DNA of 64,000 nt from Roseimicrobium sp. ORNL1. Lineage in GTDB: Bacteria > Verrucomicrobiota > Verrucomicrobiia > Verrucomicrobiales > Verrucomicrobiaceae. The stretch's first letter is position 1. Each line of letters starts with the position of its first letter. Of the stretch, positions 21,294 through 29,490 are shown piece after piece. The notes beneath the pieces were generated by a model. The model was not told the origin of the DNA and ran no database searches. It saw only the letters and a program-made list of their open reading frames with translations. The stretch spans positions 2,294,001 through 2,358,000 of the forward strand of contig NZ_CP049143.1 of the NCBI RefSeq assembly GCF_011044495.1, written 5' to 3'. Made by a program: the position numbers and the translations under genes.

Positions 21294-21965
21294 TTAGAAA
21301 TGGTATTTGATAGCATTGAGAACGCAAGCTAGCTGAACAAAGGCGAGGAAGGTGGCAGCAAGTTTGTCGAGGCGGCGGTCGATGCGAAGGAAGGTTTTGA
21401 GGCGTTGGAAGAAGTTTTCCACTTGGTGACGCTTGCGATACCAGCCTTTATGATGTGCGGCTGGCTGCTTGCGTCTCTCGCGTGCGGGCACGCAAACGCC
21501 CACACCGCGGTCCTCCCAATGGTCACGCAAGGCATCGACATCATAGGCTTTGTCTCCCACCAGCGTACAGCCTTTGGGCACGGCCTTGGTCAACTCGAGA
21601 GCCACTGTAGATTCATGAACCTGTCCGGCACTCAGCTTCACGCAACAGGCCATGCCTTTGGTATCTACCAAGGCGTGAACCTTGGTGTTGGCCCCGCCCT
21701 TGGTGCGCCCGATGGCATTGGCTTGGACTCCTCCATGTCCGCCATTGGCAAACTGATGCACCTTGCAGCACGTAGCATCCATGTGGCGCAGCTTGCCTGT
21801 GGTGTAGCGTGCCAGCCTGCCTAAAAGGCGCTGCCAAAGGCCACCCGCCAGCCAGCGACGAAAGCGACCGTACACTGTCTCCCAAGGGCCAAACCCCTCA
21901 GGCAGGTCCCGCCATGGGGCTCCTGTACGCAGCACCCAGACAATGCCCTCCAGCATCAACCGCAC
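21294..21965 (-). CDS. IS5-family DDE transposase, main reading frame
   Basis: From the GTG at 21965 (read MRLMLEGIVWVLRTGAPWRD) the frame has the IS5/DUF4096 N-terminal LEGIVWVLRTGAPWRDLPEG, then DDE residues: Asp in RHMDATCCKVH, Asp in LVGDKAYDVD, and Glu in HQVENFFQRLKTF. It ends at KYHF. The catalytic core seems intact. Codons upstream of the GTG remain in frame (RPSKD, then RRRRRG, then RSEKDFSIRS) up to a TAA near 22039, so the natural N-terminus is missing. Confidence 0.9.
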   Translation of the reverse strand: MRLMLEGIVWVLRTGAPWRDLPEGFGPWETVYGRFRRWLAGGLWQRLLGRLARYTTGKLRHMDATCCKVHQFANGGHGGVQANAIGRTKGGANTKVHALVDTKGMACCVKLSAGQVHESTVALELTKAVPKGCTLVGDKAYDVDALRDHWEDRGVGVCVPARERRKQPAAHHKGWYRKRHQVENFFQRLKTFLRIDRRLDKLAATFLAFVQLACVLNAIKYHF

Positions 21966-22220: not shown

Positions 22221-23993
22221 ATGTGGCCTCAAACCTCTCTTAGCGCGATTATCCTGTCTGCCATACTGCTCGTGACCGGGAGGGAGTCTTCAGCCGAAGA
22301 GATCTCCCTGAAGATCAATGGCGGCACTGTCCGGCAAACCGATCAGGCCATCTTGTACTGGGAGCCCGATGGAGGAACTCCCGAGGTGCTGGATCCGTCG
22401 GTAGAGGGTGCCACCGCGATGCAATGGACCTTGGGCGCTGGATATTTTGACGGGGACAAGATTGCCCTGTGGAGGGGGGACGCCCCGGGCCACTCGGAAT
22501 ACTGGGCATACACTCAAAAAGGTGGCAAATGGCAACTGACGGACAAAGCCATGATGGGATCCGTTTTGAGCTGGGAATTCGACCAGGTCCGATTCAGTTC
22601 CGTGCGTGTACTGGAACTCCTGAAGTACAAGAAGGTGGCGACCAAGTTCGAAATCACCGATGAACCCCGTGGCGGTCATCCGCTCTACCGCAAGGTGCTT
22701 CGCAATGAATTGGAGTGGACCCCGTCAGGTACGCATATTGAAAATGAAGGGAAGGAACCGATAAAAGCCCCGATTTCTCTGAAAATCGGTGGCGGCACCG
22801 TCAAAGAAATCCGAACACACGCGAGTCCCTATACCTATATGGCCACTCTGTATTGGGAGCCTGATGGAGGGACTCCGCAGGTGCTGCATCAGTCAGAGTG
22901 GAGTTCCCTGCGCGATCCGCAACTGACGCTGCGCACCGGCTATTTTGAAGGGAACAAGATCGCCTTGTGGAGAGTGAGCGCCACCAATGCAACCGAATAC
23001 TGGGGCTTCACGCAAAAGAATGGGGAATGGCAACTGACAGACATGGCCGAGTTGGAATCCATCACGTTTTTGAACTACGACCAGGTTCGCTTCAGTTCCG
23101 CTCGTGTACTTGAGCTTCTGATTCGTAAGAAGGTGGTGACCAGGTTTGAAATCACCGATGAACCCCGTGGTGATCATTCGCTTTATCGCAAGGTGCTTCG
23201 TAATGAATTGGAGTGGGCACCTTTAGGAACGGTTGTCGGGACGGAGTCGCAGGAGTTCAGGAAGGCACAAGCACAAGCACACCCACAGGCGCGGAAGCCC
23301 GGCACGGAACCGGTTGCCGTGCGAGTTTCCGATGCTCCCACGCCCCCAGTGGAGATCCCGGACTTCGCCAAGTTGAGCGACAGCGAACCGGTGAAGGCGC
23401 TGCTGAGCGGCGACCTGGCCAGATACGAGGCCCTTATCAAAGCGGACGACCCGGCTGCATTGCGGCTGCTCTTTCGTGTTTACACGACTGCGAAGAAGGA
23501 AGGGATATACTGGAATCGCGCCTTGTGGTTGCTTTCCAAAAGTCCGCAGACCTGGGTGATGGAGGAGATACGGAAAGACTTCTTGAGCGCGCCCTCCATT
23601 ACCCTCCCTCCCAATGCAGAATTTGGGGCGGGGCAATCGTCCGAACTCATTCAGAAACCCAAGTACATCCTGGCTGCGACCCTCGTGAGGATCGGCGATC
23701 TTGAAATGTTGACGCGCCTCTGGTGGGAATTTTCCTCCCTGTCTCCCGAGGACCAGATGGTGGTGGCCATGGCTGCGTATGAGATGCCCAGACTGGGAAT
23801 GGTGCAGACCATCCTGAACGCCACCAAGTCTGCGAAGACCGACAAGATTGCCGATGCCCTGATCAACTCAGCGAACCAACTCGTCGTCCAGGCGCTGGCG
23901 GATCCCGTCAAACGCGAAGGAGCCATCCGTGTGGGCGAACATTTGAGAAGCAAGGGTCTCGCCCGTGGGTTCCTGCTCGAAATGCTGAAGTGA
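22221..23993 (+). CDS. Exported protein with two tandem copies of a ~150-residue domain (590 aa)
   Basis: MWPQTSLSAIILSAILLVTG is a signal peptide (cleavage near SSAEE). Residues ~28-171 and ~185-337 are tandem repeats sharing LYWEPDGGTP, GNKIALWR/GDKIALWR, QVRFSS-RVLELL, FEITDEPRG and YRKVLRNELEW. Then comes a Pro-rich linker (~345-385) and a helical C-terminal half, with segments such as SDSEPVKALLSGDLARYEAL and MVVAMAAYEMPRLG. I do not recognise the repeated domain. The IS5-type insertion lies 54 bp upstream, so its original promoter region may be displaced. The repeat copies are well conserved, so the duplication is probably not old. Confidence 0.7.
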   Translation: MWPQTSLSAIILSAILLVTGRESSAEEISLKINGGTVRQTDQAILYWEPDGGTPEVLDPSVEGATAMQWTLGAGYFDGDKIALWRGDAPGHSEYWAYTQKGGKWQLTDKAMMGSVLSWEFDQVRFSSVRVLELLKYKKVATKFEITDEPRGGHPLYRKVLRNELEWTPSGTHIENEGKEPIKAPISLKIGGGTVKEIRTHASPYTYMATLYWEPDGGTPQVLHQSEWSSLRDPQLTLRTGYFEGNKIALWRVSATNATEYWGFTQKNGEWQLTDMAELESITFLNYDQVRFSSARVLELLIRKKVVTRFEITDEPRGDHSLYRKVLRNELEWAPLGTVVGTESQEFRKAQAQAHPQARKPGTEPVAVRVSDAPTPPVEIPDFAKLSDSEPVKALLSGDLARYEALIKADDPAALRLLFRVYTTAKKEGIYWNRALWLLSKSPQTWVMEEIRKDFLSAPSITLPPNAEFGAGQSSELIQKPKYILAATLVRIGDLEMLTRLWWEFSSLSPEDQMVVAMAAYEMPRLGMVQTILNATKSAKTDKIADALINSANQLVVQALADPVKREGAIRVGEHLRSKGLARGFLLEMLK

Positions 23994-24006: not shown

Positions 24007-27000
24007 TCACCGCTGCACACGCAGGACCACCTTTCCCGTCATCCCCAGCTCGAGTTCCTCACTACGACCTTTCGCAAGCGTGTTGACGTCCTCCCCGGGC
24101 TTCCACGCTTTGGAAAGGACGTGGAGGCGCTGAGAGCCTGCGGGCAGATTGATAAGGAGGGCACGCCCTTCGGCATTCGTAGTCACGTCGTAGGAGCGCC
24201 ACCTGTTCTTGAAGGGGTCCCAATCGGGCATTGGGTTGAGCGGAGCACTCAGTATCTCGTCCAGTCGGGGGCCATCGATGTTCAGGTAGCCATTGCCCTG
24301 GCCCTCCCAGGTGAGATTGGGTGAGGCGGTCACCAGCACACCTGGGAGTGGCCGGCCATCTTTTCCCAGCACCAGTACCTCGCAGGAGGCCGTGGGTGCC
24401 ATGGGAATGACGACCTCGTCAGGCACAGGCATGGTGAGTGTCAGGGGACGCACGGTATTCCAGGAGTTGGGATCATAGGTGTGCATCCAGCCCTCTGCCA
24501 GCACGACTGCGCGAACCTCGCCGGGTGGCAGCGAGGTGAAGTCAAACGTTCCATCCTCACGCACTTCCTGCCAGTCACGGATTGAAATGAGAGCGTTCTC
24601 ATTTCCTTTCACATGATTCACCACGCACACGCCGATGCGTGTGTTCTTCACCGGGCGGGGAAGCTGCGAGTCGAGGCGGCCCTTGAGTCGCTGGCCCGGC
24701 TCCAGCTCCAGGGTGCAATCAACCGGCTTGTCGTTCGCTACTATCACGTTCACCGGCTTGCTGTAGAGCAGGCTGCCTTCGTCAGATTTCCACAGGGCTT
24801 GTACCAGCAGCGGACCTTCGCGCAGGGAGCGGTTCACATAGGTCCCATCCGCCCCACGGATGAATCCCTTGTCTGCATCCGAACTCTCCTTGGTGCTGGT
24901 GATGTACAAGCGATCGCTATCCACGGGCTTGCCGTTCCAGGTCACCTTCGCGATGACTGTACCCGCTTTGCGCAGGGAAAAGGGGGAGTTCACATTTGCC
25001 CTGGCAAAGAACGCGTAGTCCCCCAGATAGCCGTCGCGCAGGACAAGGAGCTGCAACTCGGTGAGGGTGTTCCCGTCGGTGGTCTTCGCTGAACATTCCA
25101 TCTCGGCAACGCCACGGGCATCGGTGAGCACCGGCTCTCGCGAGAGATCTGGCAGGGCGTGTTTCAGATTTATCCAGGTACCGGAGTCTTCCTTCACACG
25201 AAATGCTTGCGGCCTGAGGCTGACCCCCTGCAGGGGTTTGCCTTCCGTGTCAGTCACCGTGATGCGGAAGCGGGCGCGGCCTTCCGGTGTCTGGAGCTTG
25301 GTCTCGGAAGAGGCGTGGTCCAACAGCACGATATCGCCAAGGTCACGCCGCTTTTCCTTGAGCGTGGCACCGCGTGGCACCTCCGGCAGGGTCAGCAGTG
25401 GCGACCTCACCGTGAAGTTTAGCTTGTCCTTGTCCCAAAGCTGGATGCGATATTCGCCCGGAGTAAGCGGCCCGGCCTCAAAGGTCCCGTCACTGCGCAC
25501 GTTCGCCGTGTTGAACTCGCTGTGACTTCCTGGGCTGGTCGTCCGTTCCTTGGATATGAGGAAAGAGTTGGGCAGGCGCCGATTGATGAAGGGGCCGCTT
25601 TCCGTGACGAAGCGTCCCGTCACGGTCCATGATTTTTCCGCCATGGGGGTGAGGTCGAAGTGCGTGGTCTCCCCAGCGCGCGTCACTTTGAATTCGAATT
25701 CTCCCATGCGTTGCGAGTAGGTGCTGCGATAGCTGTTTGCCGGTAAGAGCTCGGCGAAATGGGCCTGCTTGGCCGGGAACACTCGCGGCATGACAATCTT
25801 CCCCTCCGCATCGGAGGTGGCTCTGAACCGCACACCCACATAATGCTGGCCCGGCAGCGCCATGCTACCCTGGTATTCATATTCCACACCCGCGACGGGC
25901 TTGCCGTCATCCTGCACGGTGCCTTCTGCGCGGGCCCAATGTCCCAGTTTCCATCCCGTGCCCCGGGGCATGTCTGACCAGAGTGCAGAGGCGAATCCTG
26001 ATTCATGCACCACCAGGAGCACGGTGTCATCGGTACTTGAGGGCAGGGCGCAGACCCCATTCTCATCCGCTTCGACACTGGCTTCGAGAGGCTCCCTGGA
26101 GCCGACCGCGTTGATGTTGACGCGAGTGCTCAAATCCTCGATCGAGAATCCCTGTGTGCGCAGCAGAGCATAGACAAACGCCCTGGCGGCAGGACGTCCA
26201 TCCGGCTGCAGGATTTGCACTGTAAGAGCCTTCACGGGCCGCAGCTTCACTTCCTCGATGGTCTTGTCGTTTTTGCTGTCCAGCACGCGAGTGACGAATG
26301 GCGTGTATCCTTCGGAGGTGATGCGGTACACCACGAGTTCGTTTTCCTCGTGCAGAGTATCTTCCAGCATGCCATGCGCGTCTGCCTTCAGTGGAGGATT
26401 CGGCGGCCATGTGGTCCTTGTGTCCTCATCATCACGTGTGCGGGGAAAGGCCTGCCCGCGCTCCACGGTGCAGTCTGGCACCAGCTTGCCCGTGGTGGCA
26501 TCCACGATTCTGATTTTGATCGTGATCTGGTGCCGTGGCTGAAGCGTGACGGTGACCTCGGTCTCGTCTTCCTTCACCGGCACCTTCTGGTCCTGGTAAG
26601 CGTCGTGAGAAACGTTGGCAGAGACATCACGCCGCGGTGTCTGATCCCACGTGTACTTGCCCTCTTTATCCACCGTGCCCCAGACGATGCTGCCACCACC
26701 GAGATCCTCATGCGTGCTGCCTTTAAGCTCTACGTGGGCTTCCGGCACGGGCTGGCCCTTGCCATCCACCACACGCACGGTGAGCTTCTTCGCAGGCTCC
26801 AGTTGGTAATTCCACGTGCCGCTCTCCGTGATTTCCTCCCGCTTCATCCACACAGCGCAATCCTTCGCTTCAATGCGCATGCGGCAGAGTCCGGCGCGGG
26901 CGTGCTTCAGCTCATAGTAACCCTCTGCGTCCGTGGTCGTGGTAGGGTCCGCGATGTTCCGCTCTCGAAAGCCACGATAAATTTTCGCACCCGCCACGGG

Positions 27001-28728
27001 CTTGCCGTTGGCATCCGTGACGCGGCCTTTCATCACCAGACCCTTCTCCATGATGAGCACCGCCTTGCCCTGGCGGAAGTCGGCTGTCTGCGGGCGGGGG
27101 GAGGGGACACCGTAGTAGAGATCCAGCGAGAGATAGTCGGGATGCGAAGCGGTGACCATGAATTCTGGCCTCTTCTCGCGGCCAGCCGAGCCTGTAGCTA
27201 GTTCCGCGTTCGCAGGGATGCCCTTCATCAGCCAGCGACCTTCCGCATCGGAGGTCACGACTACAGGAGTTTGGTAGCCTTCGGGCTTTCTGAAGATATC
27301 GACGTTCACCTTGGCGCCTGCCACGAGCTTGCCATCTTCATCCACGACGATTCCGCCGATATCTTTGGCGGCCATGTCCTTCCTTGGCGGTGGTACCGGG
27401 AAGGTGGTGCCTGCCTTCAGCACCACCTTGTTTTCCTCAGCGATGAAGAAGCCGGGCGTGGCCAGGTCTGCGGGTTTGGGTTTGCTCGTGGGAGTGGTCG
27501 TGTTTTGTTTCTCGGGAGCGTCGGCTTTCGCAGAGCTGGCCGTGGAGGTGCTCTTCCTGTCTGTTGCGTTGGTATTCTCCTCCGGGGGTGCCTGCGTCAT
27601 GCCCGTGACAATCATCGCGGCGACACATCCGATGCCCACCAGCACCGACCAACGCGAGGCGCGGCGGTACGTGGTGATGGCACGAATGCGTGTGCGCAGG
27701 CTGCTGCCGCTCTCCGCAGCACCGATGACGGAGGGCGCGAGGAAGAAGAGCCAGCCCATCCAGGAACAACGCGCCGCGAGATCGATGAGCACTTCACCAT
27801 AGCGCCGCGTCTCACTGCTGCCCGAACGCTCCAGCACCCATGCATCCGTCGCTTCCTCCGCCTCGGCACGGAACTGGCGGTGTGCGTACCAGAGGAGGGG
27901 ATTGAACCAGTGCAGTCCCAGGAACACGGAAGACAGCACCTGGAGCATCACATCCATGCGCTGGGTGTGACCCAGCTCATGCAGCAGGAGCAGGCGCACC
28001 TTCTCCTCAGGCAGCGCATGCACTGCCTCTGCCGGAAGCAGAATCACCGGCCGCCACAAGCCGCAGATCGCGGGAGTGTGCAGCTTCTCCGTCACGCGGA
28101 GTTTTACGCGACTCTTCGTTCCTGCCTGGGCCTGAACCTCTGCCAGCATGCGGGTGAGACTTTCCGTTGCTGGTGTGGAAGTTCGCAACACGCGATGCCG
28201 GAAGCGCAACCATCCCACGATCAGGCATGCCCACCATGCGATCGCACCTGTCAGCCACAGTCCTGCGGCAATGAGCATCCATGGGACGATGGTTGGTGGT
28301 GCCAGAGTCTCCTTTGAAAGCACCGGGGCCGCAGAGCTTTCCATGAGGGTGGGCTGCGACGCGGCAGAGGATGGCACCTCGGACGCCTCCGACGATGTGG
28401 GGGGCATCACGTGATGAGATGATGTGATAGCCGGCTTTGCCGTGTCCGGTGCGGACGAGATTTCCTGTCCTGGTTCCAGCGCAACTTGCCGGTGAACATG
28501 CTCCAATTGCGCCTGATCGGGCCAGGATGGCAGCGCCCAACGGAACTCACCCAAATTCTCTGGACTCATCAGTCGGAGGAAGACGAGAAGCCACAGGCCA
28601 TGCCGCCAACCTGCCGGAATCCAGCGTCGTAGACACAGGCAGAGGAGTCCAATGATCACCGCCATCAGGGCGGCCTTGCTTGACACGCTGAGGACAGTGA
28701 GGAAGACGTTTTCGAGAATCGGTGTCAT
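24007..28728 (-). CDS. M56-family (BlaR1-like) membrane metallopeptidase with ~1,190-residue C-terminal extension of carboxypeptidase-regulatory-like domains (1,573 aa)
   Basis: The N-terminal ~380 residues are an M56/BlaR1 domain: helices at ~8-32 and 42-55, a third near 150-173, VRLLLLHELGHTQRMDV with the zinc motif HELGH at ~250-254, a helix at ~262-283, the third ligand region EAEEATDAWVLE, and a last helix at ~360-379. In BlaR1 an extracellular penicillin-binding domain follows. Here the extension is instead beta-rich repeats (for example VDEDGKLVAGAKVNV, GKPVAGAKIYRGF, GKGQPVPEAHVELKG, GKPLQGVSLRPQ), typical of carboxypeptidase-regulatory/Ig-like domains, of which at least six are visible. 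It may therefore sense something other than beta-lactams. The paired repressor BlaI gene starts 41 bp upstream. Confidence 0.9.
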   Translation of the reverse strand: MTPILENVFLTVLSVSSKAALMAVIIGLLCLCLRRWIPAGWRHGLWLLVFLRLMSPENLGEFRWALPSWPDQAQLEHVHRQVALEPGQEISSAPDTAKPAITSSHHVMPPTSSEASEVPSSAASQPTLMESSAAPVLSKETLAPPTIVPWMLIAAGLWLTGAIAWWACLIVGWLRFRHRVLRTSTPATESLTRMLAEVQAQAGTKSRVKLRVTEKLHTPAICGLWRPVILLPAEAVHALPEEKVRLLLLHELGHTQRMDVMLQVLSSVFLGLHWFNPLLWYAHRQFRAEAEEATDAWVLERSGSSETRRYGEVLIDLAARCSWMGWLFFLAPSVIGAAESGSSLRTRIRAITTYRRASRWSVLVGIGCVAAMIVTGMTQAPPEENTNATDRKSTSTASSAKADAPEKQNTTTPTSKPKPADLATPGFFIAEENKVVLKAGTTFPVPPPRKDMAAKDIGGIVVDEDGKLVAGAKVNVDIFRKPEGYQTPVVVTSDAEGRWLMKGIPANAELATGSAGREKRPEFMVTASHPDYLSLDLYYGVPSPRPQTADFRQGKAVLIMEKGLVMKGRVTDANGKPVAGAKIYRGFRERNIADPTTTTDAEGYYELKHARAGLCRMRIEAKDCAVWMKREEITESGTWNYQLEPAKKLTVRVVDGKGQPVPEAHVELKGSTHEDLGGGSIVWGTVDKEGKYTWDQTPRRDVSANVSHDAYQDQKVPVKEDETEVTVTLQPRHQITIKIRIVDATTGKLVPDCTVERGQAFPRTRDDEDTRTTWPPNPPLKADAHGMLEDTLHEENELVVYRITSEGYTPFVTRVLDSKNDKTIEEVKLRPVKALTVQILQPDGRPAARAFVYALLRTQGFSIEDLSTRVNINAVGSREPLEASVEADENGVCALPSSTDDTVLLVVHESGFASALWSDMPRGTGWKLGHWARAEGTVQDDGKPVAGVEYEYQGSMALPGQHYVGVRFRATSDAEGKIVMPRVFPAKQAHFAELLPANSYRSTYSQRMGEFEFKVTRAGETTHFDLTPMAEKSWTVTGRFVTESGPFINRRLPNSFLISKERTTSPGSHSEFNTANVRSDGTFEAGPLTPGEYRIQLWDKDKLNFTVRSPLLTLPEVPRGATLKEKRRDLGDIVLLDHASSETKLQTPEGRARFRITVTDTEGKPLQGVSLRPQAFRVKEDSGTWINLKHALPDLSREPVLTDARGVAEMECSAKTTDGNTLTELQLLVLRDGYLGDYAFFARANVNSPFSLRKAGTVIAKVTWNGKPVDSDRLYITSTKESSDADKGFIRGADGTYVNRSLREGPLLVQALWKSDEGSLLYSKPVNVIVANDKPVDCTLELEPGQRLKGRLDSQLPRPVKNTRIGVCVVNHVKGNENALISIRDWQEVREDGTFDFTSLPPGEVRAVVLAEGWMHTYDPNSWNTVRPLTLTMPVPDEVVIPMAPTASCEVLVLGKDGRPLPGVLVTASPNLTWEGQGNGYLNIDGPRLDEILSAPLNPMPDWDPFKNRWRSYDVTTNAEGRALLINLPAGSQRLHVLSKAWKPGEDVNTLAKGRSEELELGMTGKVVLRVQR

Positions 28729-28769
28729 GACCGTGAATGATGAAATCGTTGGTGTGATGGAAGATGATG

Positions 28770-29210
28770 TCAGGACTGCCGGCCCTTCTCCTTCTTCTCC
28801 GTCGCCTCATCCAGCATGGCCCGGAGCTCGGAGAGTTCCTTCCTGGAGAGCTTCTGGTGCTCCAGGCAGTGGGCCACCATGGGCAGCAGCGCGCCTTGAA
28901 AGAGACGGTCCAGGAATCCACGCGTCTCCTGGGCGATGCAGCGTTCCCTGTCTACCGCAGGCGCGTAGAGCCAGCGCTTCGCTCCGCCCTCCACAGAGAT
29001 GGCACCCTTGTCGATGAGACGGCGCAGCAGGGTCATGGTAGTGGCCCGTTTCCATCCCTGGCTTTTCGCGAGCGCTTCGCAGAGGTCCGGGGAACTCTGG
29101 GGAGCATTCTCCCAGAGAAGTTTCATCACGGCCCACTCCGCGGTGGAGATGGAAATGGGATCAGGCGCGTGAGGTGTGCGGGGTGGAGGAGATGATTTTT
29201 TCACAGCCAT
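28770..29210 (-). CDS. BlaI/MecI-family transcriptional repressor
   Basis: From MAVKKSSPPPRTPHAPD: a Pro-rich leader, ISISTAEWAVMKLLWENAPQ (first helix), KSQGWKRATTMTLLRRLIDK (DNA-recognition helix), GAISVEGGAKRWLYAPAV (wing), and a C-terminal dimerisation helix (FLDRLFQGALLPMVAHCLEH). This is the classical winged-helix repressor that is cleaved after activation of the M56 partner. The GTG at 29225 would add five residues. The operator lies just upstream (29229-29271), so the pair is most likely autoregulated. A beta-lactamase gene is not nearby. Confidence 0.9.
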   Translation of the reverse strand: MAVKKSSPPPRTPHAPDPISISTAEWAVMKLLWENAPQSSPDLCEALAKSQGWKRATTMTLLRRLIDKGAISVEGGAKRWLYAPAVDRERCIAQETRGFLDRLFQGALLPMVAHCLEHQKLSRKELSELRAMLDEATEKKEKGRQS

Positions 29211-29228
29211 GTCCAAACATGGCACATT

Positions 29229-29271
29229 CCGTTTACAAACGTCAACGTAAAATGTTTACGGGTGTAAACGG
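29229..29271. promoter_or_regulatory. Operator-like dyads upstream of the BlaI gene
   Basis: CCGTTTACA (29229-29237) and its complement TGTAAACGG (29263-29271) are a perfect 9-bp outer dyad. Inside, GTTTACGGGTGTAAAC (29254-29269) is a perfect 6-4-6 inverted repeat, and GTAAA at 29246-29250 is another half-site. BlaI/CopY-type operators have TTTACA/TGTAAA half-sites, and the location just before the gene agrees. Confidence 0.7.
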
Positions 29272-29316: not shown

Positions 29317-29490
29317 CCTTGGACTGCGTGCAGCCTGCTGCCGCTTTCCTAAAGTGCAGCCTGCTGCACACTGCACCGCGACGAAGTCGCCAAATGTCTC
29401 TCTGGGGATGCGACCTTGTGAGCAAGTGTCGCGATCGCCGCAGCAGGCTGCGGACTCTCAAAGCGGCAGCAGGCTGCACGCAGTCCAAGG
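29317..29490. mobile_element. rep-E, 174-bp MITE-like element with 31-bp perfect inverted ends
   Basis: Left arm at 29317-29347 begins CCTTGGACTGCGTGCAGCC; the right arm at 29460-29490 is its exact 31-base complement. The interior has GTGCAGCCTGCTGCAC (hairpin) and GCGACGAAGTCGCC. A half copy with the same left arm is at 18942-19024. No protein is encoded. It fills the gap between the BlaI gene and the helicase. Confidence 0.75.

Follow-up and report, generated by a model that had tools for sequence, protein, structure and literature searches.

What does a BlaR1-type membrane protease sense when another kind of domain stands where the penicillin sensor should be? BlaR1 has hardly been known in any role but that of a penicillin sensor. 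In the window (the whole stretch of 64,000 nucleotides analysed here, from Roseimicrobium sp. ORNL1), a BlaI-type repressor gene is followed by a gene for an M56 metalloprotease with a very long C-terminal region. The features needed below are as follows.

24007..28728, minus strand: M56 (BlaR1-type) membrane metalloprotease with a large C-terminal ectodomain, 1573 aa (Pfam profile, orthologue)
27595..28728, minus strand: membrane and protease core of the same protein, residues 1-378, with four predicted transmembrane helices (about 15-33, 39-54, 150-171 and 359-377), HELGH at 250-254 and E291
24010..27594, minus strand: extension predicted to lie outside the membrane, from residue 379 to 1573, with some 11 beta units of carboxypeptidase-regulatory/Ig-like type
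28770..29210, minus strand: BlaI/MecI-type repressor, 146 aa, ATG at 29210 (Pfam profile)
29231..29246, no strand assigned: promoter-proximal operator GTTTAC-AAAC-GTCAAC, whose minus strand holds TTGACG, a -35-like hexamer
29254..29269, no strand assigned: distal operator GTTTAC-GGGT-GTAAAC, the sole exact copy in the genome

Protease, repressor and operators

Both proteins were recognised by their Pfam profiles. Peptidase_M56 (PF05569) matches residues 11-325 of the protease (E=2e-46, 158.8 bits against a cut-off of 31), and Penicillinase_R (PF03965) matches BlaI over its full length (E=5e-30, 104.6 bits, profile positions 1-115 of 115). The HExxH motif and a downstream Glu ligand are present as in the Peptidase M56 profile. 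These zinc ligands, H250, H254 and E291, align with those of Staphylococcus aureus BlaR1 (8exs) and are invariant among relatives. The preliminary description of this DNA, which had called the HELGH core and BlaI intact, was borne out, and the M56 protein is a candidate zinc-dependent protease. Four helices, at about 2-32, 39-54, 149-183 and 359-377, were located by hydropathy and in an AlphaFold model that covers residues 1-480; the protease part is between helices 3 and 4, which is a BlaR1-like layout; the residues after about 378 are predicted to lie outside the membrane. A Foldseek search with the core model returned six BlaR1 chains at the top (E 1e-6 to 8e-5), the best PDB entries being S. 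aureus BlaR1 8ext, 8exs, 8exq and 8exp, followed by ZMPSTE24/Ste24. The N-F dipeptide at which MecI is cleaved was not evident in BlaI by eye; H-C presumably occupies the aligned place.

The M56 gene lies 41 bp downstream of blaI, and the ATG of blaI is also kept in a same-genus genome (G002), whose M56 orthologue is 72% identical. Upstream of blaI, where one palindromic operator had been noted, there are two dyads in tandem, 23 bp apart. Both dyads, of the TAC-N4-GTA type, are kept in the orthologous promoter of G002; the spacer letters differ, and the hexamer there reads TTGACA. Judging from this hexamer, BlaI bound to the proximal operator would cover the -35 region.

Are there other sites for this repressor? 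A strict search of the whole genome (7.96 Mb, one contig) for TTTAC-N4-GTAAA, a check that the preliminary description had called for, gave one occurrence, the pair's own promoter. One mismatch in a longer form of the operator added only one site, within the end of a LacI-type gene, and no further BlaI target with an exact or one-mismatch operator was convincing. No beta-lactamase or resistant penicillin-binding protein gene has the strict operator.

Just upstream of the operators lies an inverted-repeat element (window positions 29319-29489), REPIN/MITE-like, whose arms GTGCAGCCTGCTGCCGCTTT are separated by some 130 bp. It is missing from the orthologous promoter of G002, and its arm has 50 copies in the genome at up to one mismatch.

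The extension beyond the last helix

The region beyond the last predicted membrane helix counts 1195 aa, in good agreement with the earlier estimate of about 1,190 extracytoplasmic residues. CarboxypepD_reg (PF13620) matches it with 123.1 bits against a cut-off of 32.3, four stretches being individually significant, and the weaker Pfam matches are relatives of this family and likewise beta-sandwich domains. Eleven repeat anchors can be placed at a spacing of 84-118 residues, with units starting at residues 457, 565, 649, 735, 835, 932, 1034, 1152, 1256, 1346 and 1448. When each unit was scored with a leave-one-out profile, 8 of the 11 beat all 300 shuffles, while units 4, 5 and 9 were borderline. 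At least six carboxypeptidase-regulatory-like domains had been proposed; the domain type is right, but the number was too low, since about eleven units are present. Structure prediction gave a weak model (mean pLDDT 54, from nine sequences) of nearly all beta strand; the PDB matches that Foldseek listed for it, to be read with that low confidence, were Ig-like, among them pilins, Cna/Sdr (SdrD/CNA) B-repeats, macroglobulin domains and a repeat from a large adhesin.

Is a penicillin-binding fold hidden there? No transpeptidase or beta-lactamase family matched the extension in Pfam at E up to 1, and the same library detects the transpeptidase of a paralogue in this genome (L014) at E=5e-48. There was no penicillin-binding protein among the 50 PDB matches listed for the weak extension model. 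A hidden fold of this kind was rejected, since it was seen neither by Pfam nor in the AlphaFold secondary structure nor by Foldseek, the latter two resting on the weak model. The absence of a penicillin-binding domain thus stands as first described, and a signal other than beta-lactam is most likely.

Against the single orthologue of G002, dN/dS is 0.23 for the extension, 0.07 for the catalytic region and 0.59 for the loop between helices 2 and 3. In this one comparison, purifying selection spans the whole length of the extension, which argues that the extension has a function in the protein and has been maintained.

Relatives, paralogues and neighbours

Is such an extension exceptional? The preliminary description had held that its size and type stand out, and this did not survive the comparison. 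In 23 of the 59 genomes of the family (by row count), M56-core matches fall in open frames that are 1,000 codons long or longer. M56 proteins with a length of 1,000-1,600 residues recur in Verrucomicrobiota and Planctomycetota, and many of them have CarboxypepD_reg. Outside the family, long M56 proteins with this domain type were found in other Verrucomicrobiota and in the phylum of a Planctomycetota MAG. A unique size was therefore rejected; size and type are typical of a wider M56 group, two paralogues in the same genome included. Verrucomicrobiota relatives with the same architecture have 1201-1604 aa, for example 1325 aa in Brevifollis gellanilyticus (L077) and 1201 aa in Prosthecobacter sp. 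(L094). Among full-length relatives, the nearest comes from a Verrucomicrobiales MAG, with 1604 aa and an identity of 25%, and the extensions of the Verrucomicrobiota CarboxypepD_reg relatives are merely 21-25% identical in global alignment. A tree of the cores places the pair next to the clade of the relatives' long M56 proteins, with only moderate support (85/85).

Other M56 proteins of the two phyla have ectodomains of different types, with redoxin, ankyrin, HEAT, secretin or penicillin-binding domains. Single cases seen in passing are an M56 protein with ankyrin repeats (L103:2448-5537), one with HEAT repeats (L117:634-5349) and one that combines CarboxypepD_reg with redoxin/AhpC-TSA (L118:1179-5381). 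By inspection, relatives whose BlaI shares the recognition segment WKRAT share the half-sites as well, and a different segment, PITRNT, goes with ACCGAC/GTCGGT.

In the genome itself, M56 and BlaI genes number nine each and stand next to each other in pairs throughout. The M56 ectodomains comprise three of the CarboxypepD_reg type (1573, 1335 and 1149 aa), two with a secretin match, one penicillin-binding transpeptidase and three short ones. In most of the paralogous pairs, the dyads have a sequence of their own: CTACA-NN-TGTAG, common to both secretin-type pairs; TGCTAA-N4-TTAGCA at the L013 pair; ACGAA-N4-TTCGT at the penicillin-binding type (L014); and ACGAT-N4-ATCGT at the L015 pair. No clear dyad was seen at the L012 promoter. 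Two of these motifs were also searched genome-wide in strict form; the secretin-type motif occurs at its own promoters only, and the penicillin-binding-type motif at its own promoter and at two sites within ORFs. The count of 0 non-operator sites for CTACA-NN-TGTAG, against 27 for the reversed control, was not read as a sign of avoidance, since the rare trinucleotides TAG and CTA are missing from the control pattern. The two secretin-type genes (L009:4924-6720 and L011:5394-8246) match PF00263 at E 8e-13 and 3e-12; a secretin domain is a strange thing to find on a protease of the inner membrane.

What lies beside the pairs? Next to the M56 gene in the window is a convergent gene (22221-23993), and no co-transcribed target gene adjoins the pair. 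The convergent gene encodes 590 aa with two internal repeats (SLKINGGTV...) and no Pfam match, and G002 has a shorter homologue (418 aa) at the same place. A transposase-like ORF, IS5-type by eye, is found nearby (21294-21965). Elsewhere, the M56/BlaI pairs of L080:10925-15342, L082, L059-L062 and L012:2-4998 are followed by PSCyt1-PSCyt2-PSD1 and DUF1501 genes, as identified with Pfam on L080 and L012 only and from gene order and sequence similarity on the others. L012 holds a short M56 paralogue of the same genome, and after it come a pectate-lyase-like gene and the PSCyt1-PSCyt2-PSD1/DUF1501 set. No PSCyt/PSD1, DUF1501 or pectate-lyase-like gene is found beside the pair in the window.

A probable private sensor circuit and its alternatives

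I consider it quite probable that the pair works as a proteolytic sensor circuit like that of BlaI/BlaR1, private and autoregulated, in which an ectodomain of about eleven beta-sandwich domains replaces the penicillin sensor. At rest, a BlaI dimer would occupy both dyads of the tandem, over the -35 region, and repress both blaI and the M56 gene. A signal in the envelope, most plausibly a polysaccharide or another surface polymer, may bind, stretch or cleave the ectodomain. The membrane helices would transmit it to the zinc site in the cytoplasm, and this site would inactivate BlaI directly or indirectly and so lift repression. Points against this reading are that no co-transcribed target gene adjoins the pair, that the N-F dipeptide was not evident in BlaI and that the extension model is weak. 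As the strict operator was found nowhere else in the genome, the one sure target would be the circuit's own operon; further output may pass through weaker sites or through the M56 protein itself. That the signal is a surface polymer or a surface protein is a guess, prompted by the type of domain fold and by the pectate-lyase, PSCyt and DUF1501 neighbours of other pairs.

Could the pair still report cell-wall or beta-lactam stress, the M56 core and BlaI answering peptidoglycan fragments and the extension being a mere spacer or scaffold? In B. licheniformis, a peptidoglycan dipeptide frees BlaI from its operator (PMC3305447), so a ligand need not bind the ectodomain. This explanation is nevertheless quite unlikely here, given that the extension lacks a penicillin-binding domain and is conserved along its whole length, and that the genome already has an M56-PBP/BlaI pair distinct from this one, whose operator differs. 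Alternatively, the extension may be the output: the product would be a surface or adhesion protein anchored in the membrane, BlaI feedback would set its amount, and the protease core would shed or tune it. Strict operators at its own promoter only, and nearest folds among pilins, SdrD/CNA B-repeats and macroglobulin domains, would suit such a role. However, those fold matches depend on the low-confidence model, and the ectodomain types vary widely among otherwise similar M56/BlaI pairs, as interchangeable sensors would; I hold this explanation to be unlikely.

The neighbours of other pairs raise one more question: does the pair control polysaccharide-use genes (PSCyt/PSD1, DUF1501, lyases) in trans via degenerate sites? 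The same kind of M56 gene precedes PSCyt1-PSCyt2-PSD1 and DUF1501 genes in related genomes, and the short paralogue in this genome precedes a pectate-lyase-like gene and a PSCyt/DUF1501 set. Genes of these families are numerous in these genomes, and such neighbours may therefore be due to chance. Since, moreover, none of them adjoins this pair and the genome has no second strict operator, control in trans seems very unlikely.

The private sensor circuit may be one of many, and the wider claim is more interesting than the single protein. I tentatively propose, as a possibility somewhat short of probable, that the M56/BlaI pairs of Verrucomicrobiota and Planctomycetota make up a large undescribed class of proteolytic sensors, modular and with one repressor each, in which the core and the repressor are kept, the ectodomain is exchanged and most paralogues have their own operator, with up to nine circuits per cell and little crosstalk. 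No description of this class of M56 proteins was found in open-access full text, and such sensors, a large group whose members each have a DNA switch to themselves, are apparently undescribed. If the pair works as proposed, the protease-repressor module is a general envelope sensor with exchangeable ectodomains, the separate operators would be a ready set of orthogonal switches, and there would be a first handle on the ligands of many large CarboxypepD_reg ectodomains in these bacteria.

The pair resembles BlaR1/BlaI and MecR1/MecI of Staphylococcus and Bacillus in that the M56 protein has the zinc site and the layout of four helices, a BlaI repressor is encoded next to it, and tandem dyads of the TAC-N4-GTA type lie at the pair's own promoter. 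In contrast to those systems, its M56 protein has a beta-domain ectodomain of about 1195 residues instead of a penicillin-binding sensor, and no beta-lactamase or PBP2a target was found for it. The paralogue L014 (952 aa) is likewise part of a BlaI/M56 pair with tandem operators, but it has a real penicillin-binding transpeptidase ectodomain and the operator ACGAA-N4-TTCGT. Some Verrucomicrobiota CarboxypepD_reg relatives, unlike this pair, precede PSCyt/PSD1 and DUF1501 genes. The same architecture is found in Brevifollis gellanilyticus, Prosthecobacter sp. and Verrucomicrobiales DT_116 (L076), and BlaI proteins of the L077/L094 type share with this one a WKRAT/WKRPT recognition segment and GTTTAC/GTAAAC-like half-sites.
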